64,000 nt of DNA from Tribonema minus (Eukaryota; Sar; Xanthophyceae; Tribonematales; Tribonemataceae), in assembly GCA_017506865.1 (NCBI GenBank), contig JAFCMP010000126.1, forward strand, positions 1-64,000, in the 5' to 3' direction. The notes under the pieces were generated by a model. That model saw nothing but the letters and a program-made list of their open reading frames with translations, did not search any database and was not told the DNA's origin. The position numbers were made by a program, and so were the translations under genes. How positions within the stretch are numbered: position 1 is the first letter of the stretch; every line of letters starts with the position of its first letter. Of this stretch, positions 23,301-62,795 are shown in pieces.

Positions 23301-25049
23301 CTGCAATTTGGGCATTCCCTTCTACGCGGCCTACAGCAACCGATCCACTGCCGTGACGGAGATCTATGAGGCTGCACGCAAGATGTGTGCAGAGGGGAGG
23401 TGGGGGGAGGCACAGGACTTCATCATATCGAGTAAGTCAAACTCAGTACCGAATGTGTAATGCAATCTGATTGTGTGCATTTGTATGTCGTTCCTTTTGT
23501 CGAGAAATGAAGGATCGAGCAGAGTCTCAAGCAGGTGGCCGGGCAAGCGAGCACACGTGGCAGAGAGAGAGACTCTGGCTGAAGCCGTGTTTGAGAGGAA
23601 GTGAATTGATCAAACTGAGACAAACTCAGTGTGGCCGAGTGTGGCCGTCGGGCCGAGACTCCGTCTGGCCGTATATCCGCTGCAACTGGCCGCTCTGTAG
23701 TGCAACTGGCCGAGTCTCCACTGCAACGGGCCGATGACAAACTTCAACTCAAAGTTGAACTTTATACTTCAAGTTGAAGTGCTTACTTCAACATGCAATC
23801 TTAGTGTATAGGTGCTGCACCCAGTCATGACTCTCCTGGGAATGGGGGCATTTCACCCAACTTGCAGGCCATGTAGCCTATCTCTTGCTCAGACTCATGT
23901 GAGGGCGTACCAGACTACATGCTCTGAAAGCAATATATCGCGACACCTTTATGCATATCGATTGCTTGAAAATGACTTGCTGTCGGATACTGGAACGCAC
24001 CAAAGCTAGATCTGACGCTCATCAATGTGCACGTGCCTGTCATGTTTACGGGCATGAAGGAGCTGCACAGCAGCGTCGCAGCTGCGAAGAGCGCTTACCG
24101 GCAGTTTGAGGCGTTACGGAGCAGCCGAGTGCAGAATCGAGGCAAGCGCTCCCAGTTTGTTGAAGCGGATGGTGAGGGCAATGTCGATGTGCCTCGCCCG
24201 CCCCCTGCACAGCGCCCCATGTCCTTAGCCATAAATGACAGCACTTACGGTGGGGGTGGGGGTAGTTACGGTGGGGGCGGTGGTAGTTACGGTGGGGGCG
24301 GTGGTAGTTACGGTGGGGGCGGTGGGAGTTACGGTGGGGGTGGTGGTAGTTGCGGCGGTGGCTCACAAGCCATTGCCGAAATGGCTGCTGCCACAATCGC
24401 CAATATGCAGAACGTGCACGCGGCTAGCATACAGGGCGCAGTTGCCAACATGCAGAAAGCTCACATGACCAGCATGCAGCAGATGCAGGCGACACACACA
24501 CAGTCGTTGCAGCAATTTCAGAAAGTGCACAAGACCAACTACCGTAGGACATCACATCTGCACGACGGGACATTGCAGCAGATGCAGGCGGCACACACAC
24601 TGTCGTTGCAGCAGATGTCGGAGGTGCACAGCCGAACGTTGGAACAGGGCGCTGATGCTCACCATGCGTACTTGGCCCAGCAGCAGCTGCAGACCTCACA
24701 GCAGCAGCAGGCTCAGCAGTACATGTTCTTACACTCTTACAATATGTACATGCAGAACCCTGGCATGCTTGCGCACAACGGAGTCGGCCATGGCAATCCC
24801 GCTCAGATGCAGGCTGCTGCACATGTTCCAGCGATCGGCGGCGGCAACCCCCCTCAGCAGCTGCCACTTGCGCATTTGCATGCCATTCACAACAACGCCC
24901 CCCCTCAGCATCTGCCACTTGCGCATGTTCCTGCGCACATCCAGCACAGCTCTCCCGGTTTTTACAGCTACTCTCAAACCGGCGCACAGAACCATATGTA
25001 TGCGCCTGCACGCGACCAGTCCCCCTCTCCCGGCACTCCGCCGATGTAG
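17373..25049 (+). CDS. Very long unrecognised multi-exon gene with three disruptions
   Basis: Fourteen exons chain with matching phases: 17373-17516, 17644-17760, 17908-17991, 18081-18470, 18590-18733, 18830-19006, 19114-19326, 19425-20137, 20336-20434, 20570-20695, 21007-21915, 22189-22700, 23047-23431 and 24010-25049. The product would be about 1,680 residues. The start (MIPFKKLMVYMAMLLFFLPW) gives two hydrophobic segments. Later come an acidic Asp/Ser run (18850-18920), a Pro/Ala tract (19680-19800), a basic patch (PSRKRAGKQGGKGKG), helical regions, then five to six SYGGGGG repeats and a Gln/His/Met-rich tail. An in-frame TAG at 18243-18245, a frameshift near 21590 and another near 22612 interrupt it. 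Coding resumes plausibly after each. I recognise no domain. It could be a decaying gene, a gene with assembly indels, or two adjacent genes. Confidence 0.55.
24246..24365 (+). repeat. Coding repeat: SYGGGGG x 5-6
   Basis: A 21-base unit (AGTTACGGTGGGGGCGGTGG) repeated about five and a half times in the last exon of the long unknown gene. It encodes Ser-Tyr-Gly5 units and ends in SCGGGS. Low-complexity Gly/Tyr tracts of this type are usually flexible or condensate-forming linkers. The reverse strand also stays open (PHRNYHR repeats), but only as a shadow. Confidence 0.9.
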
Positions 25050-27232: not shown

Positions 27233-27246
27233 AGTACAGTAAACAG
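27233..27246. repeat. Left target-site duplication of the LINE
   Basis: AGTACAGTAAACAG, exactly repeated at 30115-30128 on the other side of the element. It contains the GTAC seen at every copy's junction. Confidence 0.92.
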
Positions 27247-30114: not shown

Positions 30115-30128
30115 AGTACAGTAAACAG
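30115..30128. repeat. Right target-site duplication of the LINE
   Basis: The exact repeat of 27233-27246. Because the element's own tail also ends in AAAAAGTAC, the border between tail and duplication is ambiguous by about five bases. Confidence 0.92.
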
Positions 30129-41890: not shown

Positions 41891-44131
41891 GTGTGAGTGC
41901 TTTTGCCTTGCCGCGAAAAAAAGAGTGATGAAGTGCGCATGGATTTGCAGAGGCCCGAAGTATCGAGCTCTCCTTGAGGTTGTACTTGTTTGTCTGGAGC
42001 GCCTGCTAGGATCACGCCCCGACGTCCCAGCAGTACTCTAAGGGCACAAGTTGGCATCAGCATGCGTCATCGAATTGCGCGCGAGGCTCGTCAAGTGGTT
42101 TAGTGATAGATTGTCGCAGCAAAGTTCGCTGAAATCCAAGTGCCAATTCGTTCGGGGCTGAAGCTAGATCAGCGTCTGTCAGTCAGCGTCGACCAGTCGA
42201 AATCAGGCGAGAAGCAACGGTATGAGGTTCGACTTGACGGCTGCGCACACCAACTCAGAGATAATGGCCCACCCATGGCCACGCAGGCTCTATTGCTGCA
42301 GCAAGCATAGCGAGTTGAAGCATAGCAAGTTCAACAAGCCACTCACAGAACAAGGTCAAAGTGCTGTGCGCTGTTCAGGCAAACATCATGCTTACGGACC
42401 ACAATGTAACCATCAAGCTTGTGCAAAAAATATAATTATTGTCCATATCACTTAATCACAGCTGAGGCAGCAGCAGTGCTCACAGCCTCCTGATGCCTCA
42501 TCAAGTGCAGCGCCCGCCCAAGACTTGATGCTGAGCAGCGCGGTCGCGCACAGTCCTTGCACATGTGTGTTCACTATGAGAACAATCAGCTATCGCTGTC
42601 GCTGGCAGCAGGCAGACTTGGTGTGATGGTGCGCGTGGTCGCTCAGGCTGGTGATGTCTGCACGGGTGGCAGAGACGCGCTTGCCTGCAGACAGACGAGC
42701 ATGCAACAAAAGCAGATCAGATGTTAACCAAGTGGCATCATGTCATATGTCATTTGTGCACTGAAAGAGCACGGGCGCATGCTGTTTAAGTCTGCACAGC
42801 GTGTGCACAACGGCATATGCTTGTAGTGGGGCACAAGAAGCGTGCTGGCAAATACTAGTAGCTGTCACATGTCCATCGTTCTCGCCAATCCTGGTAGTAC
42901 GGCAGCTGTGTTCAACTGGACATGAACCAGGAAGCGTCATGCACGCAAACATGCCGTGTGATGCCCTTTTATGCTACACTGCAGTACTTGCCTCATTGTC
43001 GACGATGAGCTGCTACAGTCGTTTCAGTTCCAGCTTTGTCTTGCAGCAATATAGTACACCTCTGAGCGTCAGGAAACCACTTGTAGCTGTGGTGCATCAT
43101 CTTGTACATTTCAACTTGTGTGCATGTATTCTGCAAACCTGGTGTCGTTGCAGTGAGTAGCCACGTGATGGAAAACAAAGAACATCATTTGCATTTGGCG
43201 TTGCACAGATGCATTGCACGCGCGGTCATCCATACATATGCCATGTACAGCTGCTCTTAATGGGGCACCATTTGCAGCAGGGTCTTCAGCAATGGGAAAA
43301 TGCAACACCAGTATTCGTGCTGTTGTTTGTAAGCGCACCATGACTTGCGCATGGCATTCATCTCTTGGGTGCCCAGGACTGCGCTTGTGGCTCGCAAGCA
43401 GAGTTATTATTTACCCGCGCGGTGGGCCACCACGGCTGCCAGTGTCATTGGCAGTGTCCATTGGACTTCAACGCAGCTGTTGTGGCTCGCATTGGCAATG
43501 TTCATTGGAGGAATGCCATGCGGACACTTCTAGCCTTGCACTATTGTGCCCTCTAGAGACATGTCCTTCGTGTGCTGGTGCCATGCCCTAGGAGGCTTCG
43601 CCAGATCAGGGCACCTAACCCTAAACCTAACCCTACTGTACTGTCGCTCATTGCAGTTCCGTAAACTCCATGGACCTAGTGATGTAACGATGTCGCTGCT
43701 TTGCTATGGGTGCCCGCACTTGTTGATGTCTCTGGGAGTGTTTTGTGGCTGCAATCAGTAGCATCCGTGTTCATGGGGCCCAGCACTGCCACACAGTCAC
43801 AGTGTGGCAACTTGCAATTCTGATGCTTTGAAGGCCCTTACCATTATACTTTTCAGTTCCTTCAAACGCCGACGTACTGATTTGTGTCTACCTACGTACA
43901 GGGCTAAAGGGGTTTTTGAAGTCTTTGCCTCAAAAGCTGCTTGCAGAGAGAGTGAGCACGGCCCAAAAGCCAAAGCCGCTTTCAACAATCTCCAGGATCA
44001 ACAATCTCGCGTGAAGGTTCAAAGCGTCAGAGCACACTCACCGTAGCACGGTCGGTGCAGCAACAGCAGTAATCGCTGGCGCATATATCGCAAGTCTCGG
44101 AAGGCGGGTGCCCGTGAAGCACGTGCCCGCC
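41891..44131. other. No confident gene; short telomeric words at 43614-43634
   Basis: Scattered short ORFs. CTAACCCTAAACCTAACCCTA at 43614-43634 is an interstitial telomere-like tract. No promoter for the downstream gene is obvious by eye. Confidence 0.45.
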
Positions 44132-47100
44132 ATGAAACTCACCGCAGCAATCTTTGCCGCTTTGGCAGGCTCACTCCTGCAGGCACCAGTTGCCGAGGCA
44201 TCACTCAAGTACGATGACGCCGAAAGCATGGCTACAGCGGCGCAGCAGCAAGCTGTGGACTTCGCCCAGCACTCGTTTACGCTGGCGCAGCTTCAGGTGA
44301 GCACCATATGGCAGGAGTTGCCTTGAGTCATCACCTTCAGGATGCATGCAAAAACGGTGCTAGGCATCAGCAGGGCGCCTGTGGTCGGCATGCACAGCAT
44401 ACAGGTGCCCAAACTTGCGCTGATTCAACGCCCGGTGTCGGCCACTGTGTATGCGTGGCACCCTACCACGAAGCCCGGCAGAGCAGAAGCTGTGGAACAC
44501 TTTTGTTGGATTTCAGCACGACAGCATGTTGCAGTGAGAGCACAAGCACTGCCAGTGCTCCCCCCCCCAGAAAAGATGACTGTCATTGACCACCGCTCTG
44601 CACCAATGCCTGCGTTCATCTCTGCAGGCACCTGATGCGCAGACACTGGAGCAGCTGGCTTCTGCAATAGAGCACATAGGCCTATTCACTGTGACGGACT
44701 GGGAGCCTCAGACACCCTCAGACTTTTACGGTAACCACAACCCCTACTATGGAGCCCTCCACGCCTTGGTGGCCTGCTCACAGGGACGTGAGGACCCGCT
44801 CCCCCCCAACTCACTGCGCCGCGTCGAGATGATGGACGGTACTGCACGCCGCACACTTGCCACCGCCACCAACGCCGGCGTGCCGCTGCCTCTGCCCACG
44901 GCTGTCGCTGAGGCTTGTCCGCGCTTTGCTGAGGCTGCGGAGCGCCTGCGCAGCGCCGTCGACGCCACGGGTCGCGCTTATGCAAACATCCTTGACAAGC
45001 TCGCACACGGTGACGCATCATTGGAGAGCGGGGAGGTGCCGCCATTTGCGTCGTATGCTGCAGCAGCCAGCACGGCAGAGAGTCTCGAGCACTTCCACGT
45101 CTTCACACGCGACGCGCCAGCCGGCGGGGACAGTCGCAGGCACGGCAATCACGATAGCATGCTGCCACTGCACAGCGACATGGGCCTTTTCCTTGTGATG
45201 ACAGCTGCTGAGTACTTTGAGCTGGAGAGTGGCGCGCGACTTGAACTTGGCCATGGCACGGCTCCGCAGACAGGTCTGCTAGTGGAACTGCCCGATGGGC
45301 GCCGAGTGCGACCGCAGCTCCCACAAGGCTCCCTGCTGGTGAGTGCAAGGGCCCAAGCCCAGAACAGCCAGTTTGCATATGCACTTGTCATGGCCTTGGC
45401 GTTGATTCACGTTGAATTTTGCCAGCAGCAGTGCTAGTTCTTGCAGCACCAGTAGAGTAGGTACACATCATGGTATGCAAGTGCACCACTTGAACTTGTT
45501 GTCACTGTTCTGGCAGCGGTGAGAGTAGACGGCGCAACCACTTTATATATATGTGCTGCATTTCAATAAAGGCTGGCCATGCAGTACGATTGCAGTTGCG
45601 CAATCATCAATCAATTCACGTGCTTGGGTCATGTTTTGTTACCATGGAGCCAACCTGAGCACAAGATATGATGAGCACCAGTGTCAATCTCCGGTGAGGG
45701 AGGCTATCTTCCATAAACCCCAACAAAGATATAGCTGTGCGTTGACCAGGTGTGCTGCTCATGCATGGTTACTTCAAATCAAACTGTGCCTGTCTCAGTT
45801 CGCTACGGCAAGTACCAGCTGTTGAGCTCAAACCCTATCACCGAACCCCAAATTGTTGTTGTGTCAAGCTCGAAGCCTACTTGTAGATGTATTCATTCAT
45901 AAACTGTAACTTTAGTACCAGCTCTACTGTACTAGGCTGAGTGACGCAGTTGAGGTTGAAAACAAACTCACTGCACCGCAGCACAGCCATTTTTTCATGC
46001 TACATGCTCAGTCACTGCTTATTTGCCAAAATGTCACTCGGATGTACTTCATTTACTTCCGCTTGAGAGGCGGAAACCCCATGAAAAAATCAAAATACGC
46101 AGCGTTTGTTCTCGTGTCGAGCTTGTGCTCACACACATTGCAGCTAAACACATGCGCTACCTATATATATAGAACGGTCACTGACCGCCAAGCCAATACA
46201 GATGGGCTTCCAACAGGTCATCGTCCGCCTCAGAACCCCCCCTACTGTCCCTTGAATGTACATGCTTGAAAGTACGTCGCCTTTGCACTGCTGCTGTTGA
46301 AGTTGCATCCGGTCACACACCACCAGCTTGTGCCTGAAGTTGCTCAGTCCACCGGCACAGCGCTTTCTGTGCCTTGCTTCTCTCAGCACATGCGCTACAT
46401 GAACAACACTTGTTATTGAACACTATGTACTTGTGTCGCGCCCCAGGTGATGAACGGCGAGGCCGCAACGCGCTGGATGGATGCAGGAGCACTACGCCCA
46501 CATGCGCCACTCCACGAAGTGGAGTCTCTTGAGCTCACTGCCACCGCCCGCGCCTGGTTCGGCCGCATGTACTTCCCGCCGCAAGCCGCCACGCTACGCG
46601 GCGTCGCCACCGCCGCTGTGCAGCCCGCTGCTGGCGTGCAGCAGGAGGCACTGCTGCCGCTTACCTTTGGGGAGTACCGGCAGCAGACGTACGAGGCGTT
46701 CCGTAGCGGCCAGGGGCACTCCGCATCCGCCGTCGGCTGCACGCCTATGACGACAAGTGCTATGCTGCAGCAGCAGTCGCACAACATCAGTGCTCAGCGC
46801 GTGCTGGCCGACGAGGGCTCATGCGGCGTGGACGAGGTGTACTGCTGGATGTCTTGCATGCAGATACCTGCCGCGCTCACGTGCCCCAAGGCAGACATAG
46901 TGTGCATCAACCCCACCGACGGCACCCTCTGGCCAGAGGACTATGTGGACAGCAGCGGCACACCCGGCCACTGCTACGACTGCGTGCCGGATTGCGGCGC
47001 GAGTGGCACTGCCAGCAGCCAGGGCGGCGCCCCTGATGTGCCAGCGGCGACATCGACATCCTCCTTTTGCAACACGGTGCTCTCGCCCACAACCATGTGG

Positions 47101-47523
47101 ATGACGGGATTTCAGTTCATGGCAGGACACGCCGGGTCTCCGTGCGTGGTCTACCTCTTTCCGGGGTGGGTGCTCAACAGCGCCGTTAAGTTTGGCATCG
47201 CTTGCGTAGGGTCGTTCTTGATGGGCATAGCTGCAGCAGCGCTCACTAGCGTGCGTCTCCTGCTCAACAGGCAGTTTGTGCCCCAGCAGAAGGGGCACAA
47301 GCCGGGGCTGTGGGCGCTGGCTGGCTATGCCTTGCAGCTGGTAGTGCTGGCGGTGCAGCTCACGTTAGGGTACTGGTGCATGCTTGTGGCCATGACATAC
47401 CAGGCCGAGCTGTTCATTATGATTGTGCTCGGGCTGGCGTTTGGGCAGCTGTTTAACGTGGTATATGAGGGGGGAAAGGGGGGTGCAGCAGCTGATGAGA
47501 GCCCCAATGTATGCTGCTGCTGA
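44132..47523 (+). CDS. Secreted/membrane 2OG-Fe(II) oxygenase-like protein fused to a Ctr copper-transporter domain
   Basis: Three phase-0 exons: 44132-44296, 44628-45338 and 46447-47523, 650 residues. Exon 1 is a signal peptide (MKLTAAIFAALAGSLLQAPV) ending SFTLAQLQ. Residues 56-340 are a double-stranded-beta-helix oxygenase-like domain. They include MLPLHSDMGLFLVM with His237/Asp239, a distal His315 in APLHEV and Arg327 in ARAWFGRMYF, matching the H-x-D...H...R iron and 2-oxoglutarate set. Residues about 418-475 hold eight conserved cysteines (CWMSCMQIP, CINPTDGTLWPEDY, HCYDC). From about 508 comes a complete Ctr domain: TMWMTGFQFM, helix 1, helix 2 with M604-L-V-A-M608, helix 3 with G621-x3-G625, and a C-terminal CCC. 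Ctr proteins import Cu(I) as trimers. The fusion would put an oxygenase-like domain outside the membrane above a copper pore. Coupling is inferred. Confidence 0.82.
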
Positions 47524-49061
47524 GCAATGCAGTACTGATGAGGTGCTGCGTATACGCATAGCACACATGAATGGCAGCCGAAAATAGCAATGTGATAGTA
47601 TCACTTGCATGAGGTCTTTTCGTAATATACTTGTTTGTGGAAGGCACTTGCGGCTAACCATCCCTTGTCACCTAGAGCTCTACGATCTTTTGATTCGTTT
47701 TCATACTTCTAGCTCTTGTCTTCCTGTGCAGTGCCCCACCCGCGCCTCAATGGCTTTTGTCTCTTGATGCTTCACTAGATTGCTGGCAACAGTACTGTCT
47801 AATCGCTGTACTTCTGCAGCCCTGTATGTACGCTCGCTGGCATTGTTGTGCGGTGAGCTGCTGATGTCAGTCAGGCTCAGCTGTCATGTCACGGTGCCAA
47901 CACCAACATGATGCATCTTCAGTGTACACTGAAATCCACAGATATTGCGTACAGAGATGTCCTATGCCATATTGTAGTGATCTGCTACACACAAACAACA
48001 TGTGCTTCAAATTCGCAAGTATAACAATTGCAGCACACAAGGCTCTACAATACTCTTGCACACAAGCTGGCACACCAGTCTCTGAGCATGATGCCACTGG
48101 AGGTCTTAGTAAATTAGGTGGCAGGGACAGCTTATGCTACTTCAAGCATGTGTAATTGACTTGGGGGTGTGTCGGGAAGTAGGATGCTTGGAAAAAGTCT
48201 GGAGAGGAGACAGAGTGCAGCCTGGAGTTAAGTCTAGTTGCTGTAAAGCATGAATTGAATATTAAGCACAGGTCCAGGCAAAGCACGATAGAGCTACTGG
48301 CGATAAAGCCAGTCATGTCATGGGGAGACTGAAGCTCCTCACCAGGGGACTAAAGCTCCCCGGCTCAACCTACTGGTGCAGACACAGAAAGCCTGCAATT
48401 CCGACAGGGTGAATGATTGCAACATATGTGCCATTGGGAGTGGACGATTGCAACATGTGTTGCCAGAATTGTCAGAATAGCATGCTATCCTAGGTCTGCA
48501 GCTGTTAGTTGCACTATGCAGGGTCTGAATGGCTCCTGCTACTGAGCAGGGTCACAGCATTTTCCCGAGACAATTCCGGGTCTCTCCATATTTTCCCGGT
48601 CTTTCCATATCGCTCTCCAGAGCACGTTTCCTTCTCAGGGCATGCTTCGCTTGCCCATCTATATCAATTCACTTCTTCTTACACGGTCCTACAGCTGGAG
48701 TCTCTCTTCCTCCTTTGTGCCTTGCTACGTTGGCTTGGCATCCTCGCATGGAGCTCTAGCTGCACACAAGTCATTCCGACAAGAATACATGTGTGCGCAG
48801 GCTTTATGACAATTGGTCATACATTGAATGTGAGCAGTAATCGGGTGTCAATATGTACGTGAACCTCAAAAACATTAGTGCTTTGAAGGTCGCTTTCGGT
48901 CAAAACGTCAGCAGAATGGCCAACTTAAATGTTGCGATCTGTGTGAGGCTGCCGATTTTGTGCCAGTTCAACAGTGGGCAGCTGCGTTTGCAGATAGTTC
49001 TGAACCAGCGTACAAACATACTGCCAAAGTGTACGTACTTTAAAAGCACATGAGGCGCCAA
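47524..49061. other. No recognisable gene
   Basis: 3' flank of the copper-transporter fusion and short ORFs only. A short imperfect duplication (AATGATTGCAACATATGTG then ACGATTGCAACATGTGTT) occurs at 48410-48465. Confidence 0.45.
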
Positions 49062-50700
49062 CTTGAACACAGCCCTGACAGCGGCAGCAGTACAAGCAGC
49101 AGCCGCGCAGCTGCTGCATGCCTGCAGCAGCGGCAGTCTTCGCTGCAGGTGCTGCACTTTCCGCCCCGGCAATGCCACACGGTGCAGCGGCAGTAGAGGT
49201 GGCATACTTGCCCCTAGGGCTCCAGCGTGCAACAACAGGTGCTAACATGGAATACGTGCTGCCAGCAGCTCTATCACACTGCAGCGGCAACACCTGCAGC
49301 AACACCTGCGCAGCAGCCGTCGCCGTTAGTGGTGCCGTCAATTGCCCCCGCACTGCAACAGCCTGAGCACTGCAACACTGCTGCCGGCACGTCACCGCCT
49401 TTGCTGTCGGTGCAGCAGTAGCAAGCAGATGGCAGGACTGGAGCTGCAGATGCTGCACGTGGTGTACTTGATTTCACTGCAGCGCACTCAAGCACTTGCC
49501 AAGTACCCGATTCTGGCTCGCAGCGCCACATGTGCTCCGTTGACACGGCTTTTCTCGACCGAGGCAATGTTACTCATCAGCGGCCACATTTGCCCTGGCA
49601 GCTGGCTCTCAAGCGCTCCATTGGACTGGGGCAGCAGACGGCACACTGCAGGCTTGCAGGAATTTGTCTGGTGGCAGTCTGCACGTGCGCATCTGTCGAG
49701 CACCACGCGTCAAGGCACATGACACGATCATGCACAACAGCGGGCCACGCAGCGCATCGTGCGGCAGTATCTCAAGACAGGGCTACTCGATGAGGAGTTC
49801 ACCGCATTCTTGGTGTCTCCGGGGGATCGCGGGATGGACATCGTGCTGCCTGCCGATGTCTTTCAGAAAGTTGTTCATCAGCTATGATGACGTGACGCGC
49901 TAGGTGGGGACGTCACCTGCTTAGCGGCGCAGGCGCAGTTGCGGGCAGCTAAGACTGACCTCGAGCAATACGGCCGCGCCCAAGAGGCCGCCAAACATAC
50001 CCACGGTTTTGGTCACAATGAACGGAATTGCTACAGACCTGCCACTTTGGCAATCGTGTCACTTGGCAGCATTGGGCACAGGGGCGGAAGCCGCTGGAGG
50101 CTGGCGCTGTGGAGTACGCATACATTTTGTCGATGCCCGAAGCAGCCAGTAAATTAGCTTTGAAAGGCATAGCACTGGCGCGCATCAGCGCAGCGCTCTC
50201 AGCAGCGCCCCACATGGTGTGCTCTTTAGCGTGGGATGACACGTGTACTTTTTAATGGTTCTCGCTCAGGGCACGAAAAACCCCAGATGATGGTCTAACT
50301 TGATGCTGCTGTACGGAACGTGCATGTAGTGTGACTTCTGAAAGTGTCTCAACGACAACCACTCAAACGCCGCCGCCGCCAAATGGCATCTCGGGATCCT
50401 CCGAGTCCCCTACGTCCTCCTCCATGTGCCCCCCCCCCCTGGATTCTGCCATGTGTGTCATGACACGGCCGAGTACGCCATGTGGAACGCTGCCCGTGTA
50501 CATATGTCGGAGTCCATGGGGGTGGCCATATGTATGATGATGTAGGGGGGGGGGAAGGGGATACCATTTGACAACATTGTTCAGAAGCAAATGTCGTCAT
50601 GCAGTGAGAGACTTTGTCACAAGGTATATGTTCATTGAGGTAACAAGCTCAACACAACCATGCCGGCATTGTCGCGCCCTGAGCCACAACTAATAATCAC
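49062..50700 (+). mobile_element. Old degraded LINE copy, interrupted by a younger one
   Basis: Similar to the 28.6-30.1 kb part of the main LINE: Ala/Gln-coding GCAGCAG tract, remnants of the zinc finger (CRLAGICLVAVCTC in place of CKLCGKSPGG), endonuclease (GMDIVLPADV), then the C-terminal part and the GCGCCCTGAGC tail near 50680. Frameshifts and stops are frequent, so it is not coding. Between 50242 and 50501 a minus-strand copy has split it. The age order (old host, young insert) is evident from divergence. Confidence 0.85.
50249..50494 (-). mobile_element. Young LINE tail fragment nested in the old copy
   Basis: About 246 bases closely matching the 3' end of the main LINE in reverse orientation, 5'-truncated at GCCATGTGGAACGCTGCC. 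Flanked by CGTGTAC at 50242-50248 and 50495-50501, a 7-bp target-site duplication that again ends in GTAC. Confidence 0.88.
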
Positions 50701-53125
50701 ATGAACCTTCAAGTTGTATGGCAGCACTCACGCATGACGGCAGTGACATCCACATCAGCCTCATGGATGAGCTGTGCATGACGGCGTACAATGATGGTGA
50801 CCGTAACAGAGCTTGCCCCATAATGGCGCTTGCATTGTAAGGCTTGCAGACAATTGAAGCTAGTGGTCTGCCCACCGTCTACTAGCAGGGGTTGTAAATA
50901 GCAATGCAGGCCACCAAACGAGACTTCTTGTAGCGCAGCCCAGTCATGCAGCAAGCTCATGTATACCACAGATGCAGGGCAGCCTACGGTAGGCTGCAGT
51001 TAATGTCAAATAACGCACTTGCACATGGAGTGTAACCGTCGTAACTGCCAGCTGCCACAATGCTAAGCGATTCACACCATGTGATCGTGACAAACTTCCT
51101 GCCAGCATCGTTTGCATCAGAGTTTCGACAGTGCGGCGGCCTCAAATTTGATGATCGGCAACTCAAAATCAATGACCATCAGCGTTTGACCAACATAGTC
51201 TACATTGTCACACGTGTTTATGAGTGCAAGTTATGTTGAGCTCATTGCAAAGCAACAGGCAAGGCGGTGGTCACATTTTGAATCTGGTGAGCACTTTAGA
51301 ATGTGAGTGGTAGCACGAGATGGGCGGTATGTATGTATGAGCGGCTGCAGCTGAGCGGTTTAAGGGGCCTTGCTGAACGCGGTAGGAAGCCGAACAGGCA
51401 CCAGCATTGGATCACGTCAAGTCAATGTATGTGGCACCAGGCACAACTACCAATAACTCATGAGTAAACAGCGTGCAGCTGCTGGGAATTGTGACTGGAC
51501 GTTGGTACTTGCAGGTACTACTTGCATGCACTGCCGAGAGCGAGCAGGGCTGACAGTGTCCCAGCAAGTCCAAGCACACACACACGCGGTTCTGCTAGTG
51601 TGATTTCATTTTGTGTCGTGATGCTCACGCAAGCACGTAGAAACTTCAAGAGTCATGGTGGCACAGCAAGGAAGCAAAGACAATGTTTCGTGGAAAGGAT
51701 GGCATGAGGCGTGTATTGAGCACTGCCGTGACCCTGCAAACCCTAGGGTCAGGTCGCCAACCTAACCTACTACATGATTGTGCACACATATGGTCGCAAA
51801 AAACGGGGTCTCGGCAACAAGCTTTAGCCCAGTGGGTCCCCCTAGTGCACTTGATACCTAAGCTGCTGCAACGTATACTTCTACCTCAAACGTCGACTTG
51901 ATCCTGCCCTCACAGCGTCGGCACAGCCTTGCCGACCATCGCCGATTGATCGAGCGCCAGTGGCGGAGGCTGCAGAATCTGAGCCCGGCAGCACAAGCGC
52001 AACAACGTGCCAGCACGTAAGCTACAGCCAACAAGTGCATGACGTTTGCAGTCTGAATTATCTGAAACTGACAAAAGCCAACTATGCCTCTTGGCGAACA
52101 ATCAGACACATGCATCACATCCGGTCTAGACCGTCTTTGCGAGCCTGCGCACCAAGCAGCCAGACATGGCATGAACACGCGTGTAACTCATTCCCACAAC
52201 TTGTAGTATTTAAGTAAGCCCTGCAATACCCTAGTCCTACTCTAGAAGCCCTACTTGAACGCCAATGTCAACCCCAATCAAAAACGTCACTGTGTCTTGA
52301 GTGGTCAAATTTAGTGCAGACAGATGCATGCAGAGGTTGATGTTGTGAATATGGTACACCTTGTAGTTGTCATTGACTATAAGCCCTCAAAGTGCACCTT
52401 GCTGCACACGGTTTCTGGTTACAAGAATGGCCAGAATTGAGCAGTTGACGTGTGCCAGCAATGAACTATCCGCGAGGGTTAGGCTGAGCTGTTGTACTTT
52501 ACAGCATCACAGGCTATAGCAGGACTGCAGATTATGCATTTGCTGCTGTACAGCCTGCTGAACGAGCCCGGTTCTGATCCACACACAATTTACATGCGGC
52601 GTTTAAGCTGAACATGTGAAGGTGACTGTGAGCATTGCTCATTGACTCAGCAGGCAATGTGCTGATGCCAGTATTGATGGTTTGTACTGAATCAATAACT
52701 TGAATGCCGATATCCATCTGGCGCCAGACACGCCAGATACACACAGCAATTGGAAAGTGCACCACATCAATCACGCTGGTTGACCGTCACATGAGGTGGA
52801 CAGATGATGCTCGTCATCAACACGTGGTACCAGCACCACCATGCATTAAATACATACCCCCACATTCTGTAACAATGACCAGTAGCCTGACAACACGTAG
52901 CATGCACAGGCCTAATATGACTGAGCGCTGCAACACAGCGCATGATCACACTAGCAGCGGCAGCGCGTAGTAGTAGTATACTATACTTCGAAGTAGTAAA
53001 CTGCCCCAGCCCCCACATGCATGCAGGCAAATGGTGCACTGAACCAGCTTGCTGACAACTCGTACTAGACTCGATGGGTGACTTAGCTAGCCTGTAGTCT
53101 AGATGTATGCCACACCCTCACCTCC
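50701..53125. other. Mostly empty; one possible exon at 51916-52016
   Basis: A CACAG acceptor at 51915 is followed by RRHSLADHRRLIERQWRRLQ and NLSPAAQAQQRAST up to a GTAAGC donor at 52017. The helical composition looks coding, but no partner exons were found. At 52970-52990 there is a small AGTAGTATACTATACT palindrome-like run. Confidence 0.3.
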
Positions 53126-56100
53126 TCACACACCGGCAGTCGGCGTGCGCGTCGGTTTGCGCGTCGGCTTGCGCGTCGGTTTGCGCATCGGTTTGCGCGT
53201 CGGCTTGCGCGTCGGTTTGCGCGTCGGTTTGCGCGTCGGTTTGCGCGTCGGTTGGCGCGTGGGCTTGGACGTCGGCGTGTGCGTTGGCTTGCGTGTAGGC
53301 TTGCTGGTGGGCGTGCGTGTTGGCTTGCGTGTAGGCTTGTTTGTGGGCGGCGGCGTCGGCGTAGGGGTGGGCGTCGCGCCAGTGCCGTACGTCCCGTCGC
53401 CGTTGGGGCACTGAATGATGCAGTCAAAGCAGTGCGTGGGGCCTGTCGGTGTTGTGTAGTTCTCCGGCCAGAATGTGCCATCGATGGGGTTGCGGCACAC
53501 CATGTCTGCTGACGCGCAGACGAGGTCAGCCGGTATGGCGCGGCAGCCCATCCAGCAGTACTTCTCCGCAGCCGTGCACGACCCGGGGTCCACCAACACT
53601 CTACTCGCTCCGCTGTCAGAACCGCTCATGCTGCTGATGGGAGCGCAGCCAACAGCGCTTGCAGCGTGGCCGGCGCCGCCGTGGAATGCTGCGTACGTTT
53701 GGCTGCGGTACTCCCCAAAGGACAGGCTGCGTGAAGCCTGCACTGCTGCTGAAGCCGCGTATGCCTCTGCGACGATGTCGTCGGCGGCGGCGCGGGCGAG
53801 GGTGGCGGCGGCATCGGGGAAGTACATGCGGCCAAACCATGCGCGCGCTGCGCCGCCCAGCTGAAGTGACTGAACTTCATGCGGCGGTGCGCGGGGCGCC
53901 ACAGTCCCGGCCTTCATCCACTGCATCGCTGCCTCGCCGTTCATGACTAACAGACTGCCCTCCGGTAGGAGCGGTTTGACGAGGGAGCCGTCCGCCAGCT
54001 GCAGAATCAGGCCAGACGCGGGGGCAGCAGCGCCTTGCAGGGTGTCGCCCGTGGCGGGGTCGATGTAGGAGGCGGTCGTTGTGACCAGGAACAGGCCAAT
54101 GTCCGTGTGCAGCGAGAGCATGGCTGCGTTGCCAGTGGCTTTGCTAGCACTGGCGGCGGCACTTGTCTTGAAGCCACTCTCCTGTGTGAACATGTGGAAG
54201 TGCTCGAGGGACTCGGCGCGCGCAGCGGCGGCGGCAAACGAGGTGGTGGAGGGGGGGCGGCCGCCATAAACGATGTCATCCAAGCGCTGAAGGAAAGGGC
54301 GTGGACGCAGAGAAGAAACACACCATGATGGGCGGTGAGAGTTCTGTCACTGGCTTGTGCCCAAGAGTCGACAGGTTGAATTGCAGATGCTTTGTTCGGT
54401 CACATGCTAACCGTTGTATCGGAAACACTGGACAGAGAGTTGGTGTTGCAACAGGCGCTAGCTGACAGACTCAGCTTGAGTTACAAATTGGTGTAAAGGA
54501 AACTCCGACAGGGGGTTGATGTTGAAGTAGGCACTGACAGACTCAGCTTGAGTTTGCACCAAATACAAAGGTGACCAAGCCGCAGATGAATGCTTCCACT
54601 TCTGATCAACTTGACGATGCAGCAACTGCCACAATGTACTACGACACTATGTTTACATGTTGCAGACAAAGTGAATGCTGAACTCAGCATGCGTAGTACA
54701 TACTCTTTGCCCACACATATGCTAGCTTCAAGATAAAGTACAGACCCGATATGCCATTTGGCGGCGGCGGCGTTTGAGTGGTTGTCGCTGAGACACTTGC
54801 AGACTGTCACACGCCATGAAGATTCCGTACAGCAAGCTTCAAGTTAGATGCCATTCATCTGGGCTTTTTCGCGCCCTGAGCGAGAATCAATAAAAAGTAC
54901 AGATCTGCAAGAGCACCGAATACACCGAATATGTACTGCGCGCGTACCTAGAAGTGCAAGTGGTGATCTCTGCACAAGTACCAGCCTCAGCGTCATAAAC
55001 ACATGACAATGCACATCAAGCAGTATTTGCAAGCTCACTCCTCACAGGCAAACACTGTGCTGCAAGCCTCATTGACACACGGTATGGAGACAGGGTCACC
55101 GAGGGACTCGCTGACTCATGAGCTCACCTGGCCGTAAATGCGCCCGACCGAGTCAACAGATTGTCGCAGGCGATCGGCAGAGGCCGCAAAGAGCGGGCAT
55201 GCCGCTGCCACCTCCTCAGGCAACGGAAGCAGGTCTCCGTCCACAGCAGAAGTGGCCAGTGTGCGTCGCGAGGTGCCGTCCTCCATAATGACCATGTTCA
55301 GAGCCGCCTCTGGAACGGACGCACCGGGGGTCTCACCCTCGCTAAGACACTTGACGAGGGCCTCGAGGGTGCCAGAGAAGGGGGCCTGGGACGCGCTGCC
55401 TTGTGCATCCCACTCTGTGAGTGTAAAGGCACCAACATCTTCGATGGCGCGTGTGAGCCGCCAGGTGGTGGTGGCGTCCAAAGCCTGCAGTGGAGAGAGT
55501 GAGAGGGGTTGCAATCAGAGCAGGACTGGGCCACTGACACTAGCAGGATTACCTGCAGCCATGGCATGCAGTTGTGCACCCGCACAGTGTACCAGTAACG
55601 CATGTGCCGAGTGCGTTGTGTACAATTATTGTACATCATTGCAGCAAGCCTCCGTGTGAGCTGGATATATACGCCAGTGGGTTGCAGCGGCCATCAAATT
55701 GCCTTGCATGCGACCCAGGGCATGCATATGCATGCGACATGTCAAAGCTGCAACTTGTGAAGTCAATGAGGAAAGTGTAGCTGCAGAGTGTAGAATGAGA
55801 CACTGGAGTTCACGGTCAACGACTCATGACAGTCAACTACAACCCATTGCAGTGCAAGGGAACCTCTGCCTCTGCGTCAAGACTTTCGTCGTTTTTGTGC
55901 GCCCAGGTGTTGTCGATGCAACGCATCTCGGTACCTGTACGACATTGGGTCGCCTCACAACATTTTTAGTAAGTTTAAATACCCCGTTCAAAAAAAGCTG
56001 CAGTAGCCACCAGCAGAACTAGTGTGTTACCAGCACCGCGCAAGGTGATGCATACGCCATGTCAACTTCGGAACCGCCTTTGAAGAAATGCTGTACATGC

Positions 56101-56394
56101 TTTCAGATACCATCAACCGTGCAGCGAGCACGCAATTGCTGGCGCCGCGGCGGGCGCTTGTCGATGACTCGGGCTCGGTTGCAATAAGCGCGGCAGACAG
56201 GCAATGGTGCAGCATTGATCTGAGAGTCTGCATGCCGCAGCGGGTGCAGCAGATGGGCAGCTGGGATCGATGACTGCAAATCTTACCTGGAGCTGCACCA
56301 CCGTGAATGAGGGCAAGCTGAACGTTTCCGGCTCTGCAGGAGCCGCCACGGTGCCTGACGCGACGGCCCAGACAGCCAGTGCACGTGGCTTCAT
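53126..56394 (-). CDS. Secreted 2OG-Fe(II) oxygenase-like protein with Cys domain and KPTRKPT tail
   Basis: Three phase-0 exons on the minus strand: 56394-56287 (signal peptide MKPRALAVWAVASGTVAAPA, ending SFTVVQLQ), 55484-55128 and 54286-53126; 541 residues. The oxygenase-like core has MLSLHTDIGLFLV (H-x-D), a distal His in APPHEV and ARAWFGRMYF with the conserved Arg. The same eight-cysteine domain follows (KYCWMGCRAIP, CRNPIDGTFWPENY, HCFDCIIQC). Instead of a transporter the chain ends in PTPTPTPPPTNKPT and about 25 repeats of the K-P-T-R type. It should be secreted and perhaps wall-bound. Intron 1 follows QLQ as in its two paralogues; intron 2 holds a LINE tail at 54745-54893. All recognised exons are intact. 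It lies head to head with the paralogue starting at 56623. Confidence 0.8.
53140..53345 (-). repeat. Coding minisatellite for the (KPTR)n tail
   Basis: A 12-base unit (GGTTTGCGCGTC on the plus strand) repeated about 17 times, with diverged copies toward 53345. It encodes the basic Pro/Thr tail of the oxygenase-like protein. Such arrays change length easily, so the tail is probably variable between strains. Confidence 0.9.
54735..54903 (+). mobile_element. LINE tail insertion with 10-bp target-site duplication, in an intron
   Basis: About 149 bases (54745-54893) of LINE 3' end starting CCCGATATGCCATTTGGCGG and ending GAGAATCAATAAAA. Flanked by AAAGTACAGA at 54735-54744 and 54894-54903. It lies in intron 2 of the oxygenase-like gene, antisense to that gene. 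Confidence 0.92.
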
Positions 56395-56622
56395 GCTCAA
56401 CGCAGGGGCCTGAAGCTGGTACACGCGCCGAGCTGCACGAGAGTGAGTGTTCGCAAAGGGCTTGCTGGGTTCACACGACAAGTTGTTGATCTGGATCCGT
56501 TGAAGTTTGAAGTTTTGAAGTCTGGCCGCAATTCCGTGCTCGTCAACAATCTTCTTGCAGTGGTGGCGTGCAACACTTTAGTGCAGCACTACTGTTTAGT
56601 GCTCGCAAACTGGATCTCACCG
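56395..56622. promoter_or_regulatory. Probable shared promoter of two divergent paralogues
   Basis: Only 228 bases separate the start codons of the two oxygenase-like genes, which point away from each other. Both 5' UTRs and both promoters must fit in or overlap this interval unless an upstream non-coding exon exists. No canonical TATA box stands out. Co-expression of the two secreted proteins is a reasonable inference from the spacing. Confidence 0.45.
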
Positions 56623-59270
56623 ATGACGCTGTTTCCTACGGCACGGCTGGCAATGCTGGCCTTCTGCGCGACAGGGCTAGCCGTCGCGACGGGCGCCCCA
56701 TCCTCATTTACCCTTGCGCAACTACAGGTGGGCTCTCTGTTTGGGTGTTTGTGTTGCCTAGTGGAAGGACTGCGGTGACCGCCAGAATGATGCTGCCAAC
56801 TAGTACTGCATGTAAGCTTTCGACTTCATCTAGCGGGGCTTTACTGCAAAGTCATCAACGTTGGGCGCCGAGAGCTCGTGTGCTCGAAGCCGTGTCACTA
56901 CCCGCACCACGACGACCGCTCGGTGCGTGGCTTGATGTTCTGCTGTCTTCAAAAACCAGATAGCAGCGGTCCGTGGAGTTCAGCGGTCAGTTTTGCTCGA
57001 GAGCCAGCGAGACCTGCTCCATTATCCGGGCACGTAGCCCGAAGGTGGTGGACTTGGTGTTGAACCACCTGCTGTGAGCCCCGCACGTAGATGCTCTCTG
57101 TCTTGAGACATGCTTGTATTCATGAAACTGGTGCTAGTTGCGTATGTCTTGTTCAAATTGAAAGAAAACTCTACCTGTACTTGAAGCATGCAATGGAATG
57201 GTCTGATGAGCGATGGGTGTTGCATCACAAAAGTAGTTTCTCTGAAAAACCTCATGTGGCTGCACAGAATTAGAAATTGTGAGTATATGAGGTAGCAGAC
57301 CTCGCGTATGGAACTTTTATGCATCACTTGTGCCATTCAGGAACCTGCAGTGCATGACTGTACATTCAGGATTTTTTTCCATCTCATCGAGTCAACAATG
57401 CAAGTGTTGATCTAGACTTGCTGCTGACGCTCGGCCCTGGCCGCTTTTCTCCACATGCAGAATCCTGATGAACAAACACTGCAGGAGCTGGCTGTTGCCA
57501 TTGAGACCATTGGCCTGTTGAGCATCACCGACTGGGAGGCACACACACCAAGTGGCACAACCACAGCGCCACCCTTCTATGGGGCACTGAGCGACTACGT
57601 TGCCTGTGCGCGCGGTCCCATGCTCAACTCTGCCTCCAGCAACACGCTGCGCCGCATTGAGATGGAGGACGGCACTGCACGCCACACCGTTGCCACTGCC
57701 ACCGTGGGAGGCACCCTAATGCCATTGCCTGAGGAGGTCACAGTTGCCTGCCCCAAATTTGCCGCTGCCTCCAGTGACCTGCGTGAAGCTGTGGATGCTG
57801 TTGGCCTTGCCTACACCCAGGTGCGCCTGCAAGTTTTGAAGTTCATGTTTGAAAGTGGACGTGTGCATAGCTGTTGAAGTTCCTGTGACAAACGCCATAT
57901 AGTGCATGCCTGCTTCAGAAGTGGTAGTGTCCCAAGCCATCAACGGCATGTATCACTCTCTGGAGTGCTCAAGCAGCTGTAATCTTTGGTACACGCAACA
58001 GTGATGTTCAAAGCGTGTTTGAGGATCCAGTATTTTCAAATCTTTGTGACAAGACCTTGACCCTTCTTGTAGCAAGCGCGATGTTGGTTATCTGGGCTGT
58101 TTTGCACCCAAATTGCAAAGTACTTCAGAAGTAGTAGTTTTTGATACTCATACACCTTTGCTGTGGTCAAAGTACCCGTCTGCTTGCACAGCAGTGTCCT
58201 GTATTATCAAAACCCATTTCTACACACTATCCTGTCACTTTCGAGTCATCCTGAGTCATGCCAATAGATGCTGTATTCTAGCAATGTCACGCACTGCTGC
58301 TTTGTATACTGTTGCCACATTCCTCAAGAGACCATAGGCTCACACAGCACCGTTACATTGCAATGCTTCTTTGATGACTACACGGCAGGTCCTGGACACG
58401 CTGGTGTACAACGGCTCACCGCCCAGCGCCGCCAGTTCGTTTGTGACTGCTGCTCAGCAAGCAGAAAGCCTGGAGCACTTCCATATGTTCGTGCAAGAGG
58501 AAAACACCGCCAGCCGCCACAATTCCGCCATGCTGCCACTGCACACTGACATCGGCCTCTTCCTCGTCATGACGGTTGCGGAGTACATCGACCTGCCAAC
58601 AGGGGATCGCCTTGCCGGCAGCTACCGCCTGCACGGCTCCGGCCTCGTTGTGGAGCATGCCCCCGGCCAGCGGGCAGCACCCGCCCTGCCTGAGGGCGCT
58701 CTGGTCATCATGCACGGCGAAGCAGCAACACGCTGGATGGAGGCCGGTGCCGTTAAGCCCAAGGCGCCCCTCCATGAGGTAGTGTCGTTAGACATCTCTG
58801 GTGCGGCACGCGCATGGTTCGGCCGCATGTACTTCCCGCTAGCCGACGCCAAGCTACACCTGCAGGACGGCGAGCTGCTTGATGATGCTATTCACAACGC
58901 AGTCGACGCCGGCGGCCTGACCTTTGGCGCGTATCACCAGCACGCGTCCGAGGCCTTCCGCAGGGGTCTGGGGCACAGCGCTTCTGCGGCCGGCTGCTCC
59001 CCTAGCGCCGTCAGCCGTCACCTCGGTGCCGCCAGGGAGCTGGCAGACGCCGCATCATGCAAGGCAGCTGGCAAGTTCTTTTGCTGGATGTCCTGCCAAG
59101 CCATTCCTAAGAAAGCCAGGTGCGCGTGGAGTAAGATGCGGTGCCGTAACCCAAAGAACGGCAAGTTCTGGCCAGCGAATTACATTGACAAGAAGACCAA
59201 GAAGCCTGGGCACTGCTATGACTGCATAGTTCAGTGCCCAAAGCCCGGCGGGGGCTGGTCTGGCGTCTGA
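56623..59270 (+). CDS. Secreted 2OG-Fe(II) oxygenase-like protein ending at the Cys domain
   Basis: Three phase-0 exons: 56623-56727 (MTLFPTARLAMLAFCATGLA signal peptide, ending SFTLAQLQ), 57461-57820 and 58389-59270; 448 residues. The oxygenase-like domain shows MLPLHTDIGLFLVM (H-x-D), APLHEV with the distal His, and ARAWFGRMYF with the Arg. The eight-cysteine domain (FFCWMSCQAIP, CRNPKNGKFWPANY, HCYDCIVQC) is followed only by PKPGGGWSGV and the stop, so there is no transporter and no KPTR tail. It is the shortest of the three paralogues and would be freely secreted. Intron positions equal those of the minus-strand neighbour and differ from the copper-transporter fusion, which lacks intron 2 and has an intron before V-M-N-G-E instead. 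Confidence 0.83.
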
Positions 59271-60180
59271 GGCAATGTGCATGTAAGGCAGTCTGACATG
59301 TAGACAGTGCTCAACCACAGCTGATGTCAGCAGTCTGAGTAATGCCCCTATGGTGCAACAGATCAGGTCATTGCATACGGGTGACTGCATCAGCCAAGGT
59401 ACGCACTTCAGTTGCATCGTTGAATAAAGTCTGCACACAAGTGACTGCATGGGCACCCTTTCTGTAAATGGTTGTAGTCCCCTGCAAGACTGCCAATGCA
59501 TGGTGTCAGTTGCAATTGTACACTGTGTTGTTCCCACGTTCAGCACACTGCACCTTGAGCCTGCATGTTGCTTAAGCGATTGGCACACTGCAGGGTACAC
59601 TGGTCGTCTCCATGTAGTCACAACTCACACACTGCATGATCGTTTAGATGCATGGAAGGACTTGAGGTGATGCATCTCATGTTGCCTCATGCAATGTGGC
59701 AGGTGTACTGCTTGCGGTGCGTGTTGACTGGTTGCACTGCAGAGCAGACCAAAAGCAGCGTGACGAAGAGTGCAGCAACAGAACTTACACTAGCTGGAGC
59801 ACCTGTTTTCATTATGAGGGCATGTACGCGACCTTTGGAGTCAAAGAGCAGTAAAGTATCCTTGCCAGAGCAAATGTCTCAACCCCCCAAAGCTTTTATA
59901 ACTGCCGTAACCGTTCAGCGTGCAAATGGCAATGAGCATGTAAATCCCATATGCTCTAACAGCTGGGAATCTCATCAATGTCCATTCCATTGGTATTGGT
60001 ACTGTTTGGTCATGTAAACCGCCCCGGATCTGAGATCCGATGACACAGCGTACTGATTGCTGCGGCAGAGCATTGTACTTTTATTATATTCCACTTGTGG
60101 CTGTGGAAATGCCATGTTGTAGGTGTGTCGCCTTGTTTTCACTCTTGGATGTAGCATGCAAAGCTTGCACGCCACACCCC
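59271..60180. other. No recognisable gene
   Basis: 3' flank of the oxygenase-like gene. Short ORFs only; AATAAA at 59424 could serve as a polyadenylation signal. Confidence 0.45.
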
Positions 60181-61278: not shown

Positions 61279-62795
61279 CATGTACTTTTTATGCGCAGAC
61301 TAGGCTGCTGCGTTGACGCAAGCTTTTCGATTGCATAGGCAACCCGGCCTCCCTTGGGCCTTTATAAATACAAGTCCATACGTACTTTTTATTAATTCTC
61401 GCTCAGGGCGCGAAAAAGCCCAGATGATTGGCATCTAGCTGTAAGGAATCTACATGTCGTATGACAGTCTGAAAGTGTCGCAACGACAACCACTCAAACG
61501 CCGCCGCCGCCAAATGGCATCTCGGGGTCCTCCCCTACGTCCTCCTCCATGTGCCCCCCCCCCCTGGATTCTGCCATGTGTGTCATGACACGGCCAGAGT
61601 ACGCCATGTGGAGCGCTGCCGACAGTGCCGAGCGTAAGCGCGCCAGGGCGATGCCCTTGAGAGCTTTAGGGCGCGCTCCTCCGGGCACTGACATCCTGCT
61701 GGCATACTCCGTCGCCACAGCCTCCAGCAGCTTCCGCCCCTGCTCCCCGATGCTGCCAAATGACCCTATTGCCAATGTGGCAAGTTTGTAGCAATTCTGA
61801 TCATAATGACCAGAATAGTGGGTAGTCTTGGCGGCCTCTTGGTCGCGGCAGCATCGCTCGGGGTCTGCTGCAGTCTTCGCCGCCCGCGACGCCACCTGTG
61901 CCTCGAAGCAGGTAACGTCCACCATGAGCGGTAGGTGGCGTGTCGGGTCGTCGTAGCCGGTCACCGGGAAGGCGTCGGCAGGCAGCACGATGTCCATCCT
62001 GCGACTCCCCGGCGGCCCGGCGGACCCCAGAAACGGCGTGTAGTCCTCGTCCACCAGTCCCGTTTTGAGGTATTGCCGCAGGAGGCGCTGCGTGGCCCTC
62101 TTGACGCTATTGTGGACAATGGTGTCGTGCGCCTTGACGCGTGGCGCTTGACACAGCCGTGCATGCAGGGTGCCGCCCGGCGACTTCCCGCACAGCTTGC
62201 AGCCTGCCGTCTGCTCCTCTACTCCGATGGCGCGTTTGACGGCCAGCTGCCAGGATAGGCCATCGAACGAAGCCGTTGTGGAGTACATGGGCTCGTTGAG
62301 GAATGCCATGCCGATCGAGTGCATGTGGCGCTGCGACCGGAATCGAGCAAGTGCTTGCGTGCGTTGCGTGCCCTGCGGCAGCTGTTGCAGGTCCGCCTCC
62401 ACCTTATCTGCAAGCTCGGTAGCGACGGCATCTGCAAGCGCACTCTGATTGGGGCGCTTCAGGCTACACTGCAACTGCAGAGCACTGGCGTCAAGTACGC
62501 AAGCAGCATCCGCACCAGTGCCACCACCTGCTGTCGGCCGCAGCGGCGGCTGCTGCGTAGGTGGTTGCTGCTGCAGTGGCGTTAGCGCTGGTGGTCCATA
62601 CGTACTTTTTATTAATTCTCGCTCAGGGCGCGAAAAAGCCCAGATGATTGTCTAACTTGATGCTGCTGTAAGGAATCTACATGTCATTATGACAGTCTGA
62701 AAGTGTCGCAACGACAACAACTCAAACGCCGCCGCCGCCAAATGGCATCTCGGGGTCCTCCCCTACGTCCTCCTCCATGTGCCCCCCCCATGTAC
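61279..62795 (-). mobile_element. Nested stack of LINE copies and a small retro-unit
   Basis: Reading the junctions, an older LINE (62606-62788) is flanked by CATGTAC at 61279-61285 and 62789-62795. The 93-base retro-unit (61293-61385) then entered its tail, leaving GTACTTTTTAT at 61282-61292 and 62602-62612. A younger LINE (61386-62593) next entered at the new GTAC, leaving GTCCATACGTAC at 61374-61385 and 62594-62605. Each step is supported by its own target-site duplication. The older LINE itself sits at the GTAC end of a still older tail (62796-62850). Confidence 0.85.
61386..62593 (-). mobile_element. Young 5'-truncated LINE with an intact C-terminal ORF
   Basis: Minus-strand copy, open from 62474 to 61494 (326 codons) and nearly identical to the end of the 27-30 kb copy. 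The CCHC finger (CKLCGKSPGGTLHARLC) and endonuclease acidic residues (RRMDIV, LMVDVT) are present; the reverse transcriptase is missing. Tail ends TAATAAAAAGTAC. Truncated at CCACCAGCGCTAACGCC. It cannot move alone. Confidence 0.9.

Follow-up and report, generated by a model that had tools for sequence, protein, structure and literature searches.

Within the first 64,000 nucleotides of contig C126 of the yellow-green alga Tribonema minus (Ochrophyta, Xanthophyceae; C126:1-64000, hereafter the window; the assembly that was searched comprises 158 Mb in 554 contigs) lies a gene, referred to here as gene A, whose product joins a large oxygenase-type ectodomain to a copper-importer domain. The fusion is confirmed as a real observation. 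Sequence comparison and predicted models show a family of algal copper importers whose complete Ctr pore is preceded by a signal peptide-like start, an IPNS-type oxygenase fold and a module of eight cysteines, with Ctr-less paralogues in some genomes. Ctr importers take Cu(I), and algal copper capture and reduction before the pore are poorly known, so the fusion provides a concrete protein for that question. It would also be a case of an oxygenase fold taken over for transport, and of a module that has separated from its pore several times. The preferred reading, held tentatively and at somewhat less than even confidence, is that a repurposed metal-binding ectodomain would capture copper and feed the Ctr pore, with soluble partners alongside.

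Gene A and its Ctr domain

Gene A has three exons and GT-AG introns, keeps a single frame and encodes an intact product of 650 residues, as the sequence-only reading of this DNA had proposed. Its parts are as follows.

44132-44296, + strand: exon 1, residues 1-55, signal peptide-like start and beginning of the ectodomain; GT donor at 44297
44628-45338, + strand: exon 2, residues 56-292, oxygenase-fold domain with LEHFH (H210, H212) at 45084-45098 and HxD (H237, D239) at 45168-45179
46447-47523, + strand: exon 3, remaining oxygenase fold (H315, R327, W329; 46507-46569), cysteine module, Ctr domain and stop
46738-46995, + strand: cysteine module, C390 plus eight cysteines at 418-475
47065-47520, + strand: Ctr domain, residues 499-650, with MWM, three transmembrane stretches, MxxxM-x12-GxxxG and the CCC end

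The Ctr domain, which had been claimed to be complete, is matched by Pfam PF04145 at E 2.3e-12 (48.1 bits against a cut-off of 25.3), the sole Pfam family seen in the protein. It holds hydrophobic stretches at about residues 537-565, 579-609 and 602-633 and ends in CCC; the signature MxxxM-x12-GxxxG, given for Ctr proteins in PMC9502191, reads here MLVAM (604-608)-x12-GLAFG (621-625). In the predicted model of P0001, which is NCBI's shorter model of the gene A locus (hypothetical protein JKP88DRAFT_180210), the Ctr part forms three long helices with the fold of solved Ctr1, and Ctr1 was also found when the PDB was searched by sequence. The signal peptide of the sequence-only reading corresponds to a hydrophobic N terminus (residues 3-21), and its cysteine module is borne out by eight cysteines which, together with C390, are conserved in the family alignment. 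In comparison to Ctr/COPT importers (PF04145; Ctr1 6m97/6m98), gene A has an ectodomain of about 475 residues, oxygenase-type and cysteine-rich, replacing the usual short Met/His-rich N terminus; before the first Ctr helix MWM is the only Met motif, the rest of the N-terminal part being the folded ectodomain. Other Ctr matches in the Tribonema genome lie on contigs C268, C27, C512, C533 and C528.

It could be supposed that two neighbouring genes were read as one or that the contig is a contaminant, the more so as P0001 starts only at residue 124. P0001 itself, however, joins the oxygenase core to Ctr, transcripts of relatives labelled complete (P0009, P0015, P0017, P0028, P0029) have the identical domain order, and the order is retained in a second genomic copy described below; the idea of two genes read as one is rejected on these grounds. 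The contig is not regarded as a contaminant because a window repeat (29678-30120) is shared with at least 35 other contigs among the best 40 of 1,482 candidates scored, and chance is excluded by the first search for relatives, in which 26 proteins, two of them from Tribonema itself, matched with E values no higher than 3.1e-53. An artefact of either kind is thus considered extremely improbable. Around both exon junctions (LQ|APDA and SLL|VMN) relatives, some of them known as transcripts, have a conserved sequence. P0001 lacks residues 1-123, 345-358 and 478-492 of the 650-residue reading, and where the two differ the boundaries of gene A are provisional. The in-frame stretches at 46603-46644 and 47002-47046, which P0001 omits, may be very short introns or an annotation error.

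The ectodomain and its metal pocket

The oxygenase fold, a double-stranded beta-helix with an IPNS-type N-terminal part, is seen in two predicted models, that of P0001 and that of the homologue P0004, in agreement with the fold foreseen from the sequence. The comparison with oxygenase profiles, suggested as a check in the sequence-only reading, gave no match: in Pfam no oxygenase family was found for the gene A protein at E up to 1 (profiles of the PF03171/PF14226 type included) nor for 26 members at E up to 10, NCBIfam gave none, and the PDB sequence search matched no oxygenase. PF03171 matches five other contigs of the Tribonema genome, not C126. Aligned along the fold with a three-enzyme profile of DAOCS, IPNS and ACCO, the family profile reached 86.9%, and none of 50 column shuffles exceeded 2.3%; the value of 86.9% is reached by the three-enzyme profile alone, since single enzymes against the family profile gave 15.9, 0.2 and 10.3%, and single-sequence hhalign to DAOCS covered only 33 N-terminal columns at 4.5%.

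In the profile alignment H237/D239 are paired with H183/D185 of DAOCS, H315 with H243, R327 with R258 and W329 with S260, where H183/D185 form the HxD of that enzyme and H243, R258 and S260 are taken in their customary roles. The H-x-D, distal His and Arg named in the sequence-only reading were thereby identified, and in a 50-protein alignment, gaps set aside, they are almost invariant (H237 45/45, D239 45/46, H315 47/47, R327 47/48). The RxS/T motif for the 2-oxoglutarate (2OG) carboxylate is absent: the Arg is retained, but its Ser is seen in no row and Trp stands there in 48 of 48. The strand before HxD reads LEHFH, and its H210 and H212, conserved in 43/43 rows, align with DAOCS R160 and R162, which presumably line the substrate pocket; judged by this alignment, both histidines probably face the metal pocket. 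It can be said that the ectodomain has an oxygenase fold and a metal triad, while the name of 2OG oxygenase is not established and that part of the earlier 2OG-Fe(II) designation went too far. The domain is not filed as 2OG-dependent because the Ser of RxS is never present and two extra histidines are probably at the site; RxW argues against the use of 2OG, nor would free 2OG be expected in the extracellular space.

With IPNS-type Fe(II)/2OG oxygenases (PDN2'H 9hdm, DAOCS 1dcs, GA2ox3 6ku3, IPNS, ACC oxidase) gene A thus shares the N-terminal helical part, the double-stranded beta-helix, HxD...H and an Arg on the next strand; it differs from them in the transporter part, the signal peptide, RxW for RxS, the LEHFH pair at R160/R162 and the missing Pfam match. 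The same evidence carries the strongest rival of copper capture, a luminal enzyme: a working Fe(II) oxygenase, using 2OG, ascorbate or another co-substrate in the lumen or at the surface, would modify wall proteins or a secreted small molecule, and Ctr would anchor it and tie its activity to copper. Whole fold, near-invariant triad and Arg, and profile alignment far above the shuffles all suit such an enzyme, whereas RxW in every row, two invariant histidines in place of the DAOCS Arg pair and the silence of all Pfam oxygenase models, although PF03171 does find five other contigs, make it an unlikely one, if a contender to be taken seriously.

Relatives, Ctr-less paralogues and family history

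Relatives were collected in a first search (26 proteins), a profile search (37 proteins; in both the best 7,996 candidates were scored) and a cysteine-Ctr search (15 proteins), in all at least 46 different proteins, two of them from Tribonema. The Ctr signature is present in 28 of the 46, the other 18 being nine Ctr-less and nine short or partial proteins. Members with Ctr come from Tetrabaena, Gonium, Chlamydomonas sp. UWO 241, C. eustigma and the diatom Odontella, and members without it from C. incerta, Edaphochlamys, Astrephomene, Tetraselmis and UWO 241, where the locus tags of Ctr-less 016079 and 006206 adjoin those of the fusions 016077/016078 and 006205. P0014 (EG_transcript) is presumably from Euglena gracilis, to judge by its prefix. 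The Odontella protein P0046 is 26-32% identical to eight aligned rows; it and P0036 are very divergent with the full architecture, which hints at great age or transfers. The order of domains had been thought to be without a described counterpart, and indeed no paper on a Ctr-oxygenase fusion was found in the literature searched, which covers few subscription journals; the order is nevertheless not unique, as relatives sharing it stand in databases, and UniRef lists some of the family as copper transporters or as Fe2OG dioxygenase domain-containing proteins.

Novelty is most at risk from the Chlamydomonas CTR1-3 proteins of Page et al. 2009, which may carry the same ectodomain. CTR3 is said to be a duplicate of CTR2 without the transmembrane part, which would be a strong parallel to the Ctr-less genes B and C described below. 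Chlamydomonas CTRs reportedly carry a Cys-Met motif, CX2MX2MXCX5/6C. The motif was sought in 43 family proteins (P0044-P0046 lie outside this set) and in the gene A protein, and none has it. CrCTR1 and CrCTR2 complement yeast ctr1 ctr3 (PMC3103425), CTR1 and CTR3 are reported in a proteome (PMC11094752), the CTR1-3 work is cited by PMC3103425, PMC8814560, PMC9502191 and PMC3759009, and passages of PMC9035749 and PMC12430517 say nothing on this question.

Searched with protein A, the window revealed the two Ctr-less relatives, and the three genes together form a block that is duplicated on the contig.

53126-56394, - strand: gene B, 541 residues, exons 56394-56287, 55484-55128 and 54286-53126; signal peptide-like start, oxygenase fold, cysteine module, basic KPTR-repeat tail
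56623-59270, + strand: gene C, 448 residues, exons 56623-56727, 57461-57820 and 58389-59270; signal peptide-like start, oxygenase fold, cysteine module, stop
56395-56622, no strand: 228 bp between the start codons of genes B and C, which stand head-to-head
42948-60078, no strand: block A-B-C, recurring at C126:127180-143544 (A2, B2, C2)

Both genes keep the signal-peptide-like start, LEHFH, HxD, the distal H, RxW and the cysteine module; gene C ends directly after the cysteines and gene B in a long basic KPTR repeat. The 228-bp region is presumed to be a shared promoter. The second block (L009, L022-L024) lies 84 kb away with open genes and the domain order retained; identity is 80.8-90.0% in the five aligned pieces longer than 1 kb and goes down to 67.7% in smaller ones. 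Synonymous divergence (dS) between the copies is 0.17-0.20 and omega is 0.18 for A and 0.26 for both B and C (the latter two computed without exon 1), so that all three genes are under purifying selection. When the whole genome was searched with protein A (20 candidates scored), the ectodomain was found solely in the two blocks, as two fusions and four Ctr-less genes, two other matches being Ctr parts.

In 7 of the 9 Ctr-less proteins outside Tribonema, a hydrophobic C-terminal stretch (mean hydropathy 1.68-2.47 over 17 residues) follows a Pro/Ser/Thr-rich linker, and such tails resemble those of glycosylphosphatidylinositol-anchored proteins; P0024 and P0030 are the two without a hydrophobic end. 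P0030 (C. incerta) and gene B, on separate branches, both have a basic Pro-rich tail. These tails bear on an intracellular reading, in which the fusion would sit in a vacuole or a compartment of the secretory pathway and release copper from it or sense copper there, the ectodomain serving as luminal sensor or store. All that is known of gene A in this respect, the signal-peptide-like start and the topology, suits such a place, and Ctr proteins occur in vacuolar membranes too (PMC9502191); hydrophobic or wall-type tails of the paralogues fit the cell surface better, an indirect argument, and the intracellular reading is judged doubtful.

Trees were built from the ectodomain after removal of the Ctr part. 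In them a single clade (support 99/99) unites Tribonema A, B and C; it joins volvocine proteins and one partial row at 98/96, or 99/98 without the two longest branches. The Ctr-bearing or Ctr-less label requires at least five changes on well-supported branches in the tree with row B2 partial. A single origin of all Ctr-less proteins was rejected (log-likelihood 507.8 lower; approximately unbiased (AU) test p about 1e-49, with the caution that this test presupposes a group chosen in advance). Mis-annotation could affect some of the Ctr-less rows, those that are gene predictions, while the Tribonema stop codons are in the DNA; some change of Ctr state could in principle be a regain. Vertical stramenopile descent (Tribonema with Odontella and P0036) gave AU p 0.031, whereas neither a Tribonema-Odontella clade alone (p 0.43) nor a grouping of the named Chlorophyceae that excludes Tribonema (p 0.33) was rejected. 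As these tests are mixed, transfer of the gene from a green alga to Tribonema is likely on the trees and not proven. The simplest reading is a green-algal gene that then gave Tribonema its own Ctr-less copies, independently so in other algae. Viral or prokaryotic kin were considered and dismissed: scans with two motifs only gave 34 stretches in viral_contigs and 25 in genome_contigs, none a relative by tblastn, and nothing sets the four viral proteins matched by fold with E no higher than 0.001 (with IPNS, Fe2OG or IPNS-like names) closer than the PDB enzymes.

Proposed copper capture at the pore and remaining window features

In the preferred reading of copper capture the ectodomain would be a metal-binding module at the cell surface, outside the membrane, which would capture copper and, in its conserved His/Asp pocket, possibly reduce Cu(II) to Cu(I); from there Cu(I) would reach the Ctr trimer by way of the cysteine module and the MWM motif. 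Secreted or bound to the wall, the Ctr-less paralogues would serve as copper-binding partners, enlarging the catchment and passing copper on via the shared module. Several points weigh against this. The metal triad is of the iron-enzyme type and its strict retention fits catalysis equally, the pocket position suggested for H210 and H212 comes from profile alignment to DAOCS and not from coordinates, and the lack of Ctr does not by itself make a paralogue a partner. Moreover, the 1 kb upstream of gene A holds four GTAC, the average rate of the window, and no clear shared motif was seen, so that no copper-response element is apparent.

A bolder version, considered rather improbable, holds that the oxygenase fold was turned into an extracellular copper centre, where HxD...H and the invariant HxH of LEHFH would capture and reduce Cu(II) and load a cysteine relay on the Ctr pore, and that algae lost the pore several times over, which left them with secreted copper receptors of like design. 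If true, these receptors would be a copper counterpart of secreted iron-assimilation proteins.

The domain might instead bind, process or make a chalkophore-like copper ligand, the fusion importing copper from the complex; we know of no such ligand from these algae. The unusual invariant histidines in an oxygenase-type pocket would suit this, and the copper-starvation (crm) cluster of Aspergillus fumigatus is alike in that ligand chemistry, through an isocyanide synthase, is genetically linked with a predicted copper transporter (PMC5974471). The cluster is unlike gene A in its separate genes, CrmA being an isocyanide synthase-nonribosomal peptide synthetase and the dioxygenases of related synthases belonging to another family, PF02668 (same source). 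The look-out for biosynthetic genes was a Pfam scan of four other open reading frames of the window, with no wider search, and the ligand reading is deemed quite improbable.

As for the rest of the window, it has no Rfam match at the gathering threshold and no tRNA. The open reading frame at 23976-25049 carries GGGGSY repeats, with a glycine-rich-protein match below the cut-off. At 27235-30000 lies a reverse transcriptase-like frame of 921 residues (RVT_1 1.3e-6, its 28.8 bits falling slightly short of the 29.6 required), whose 3' end is the repeat at 29678-30120 mentioned above, and a shorter frame at 61494-62651 on the - strand has its C-terminal sequence.
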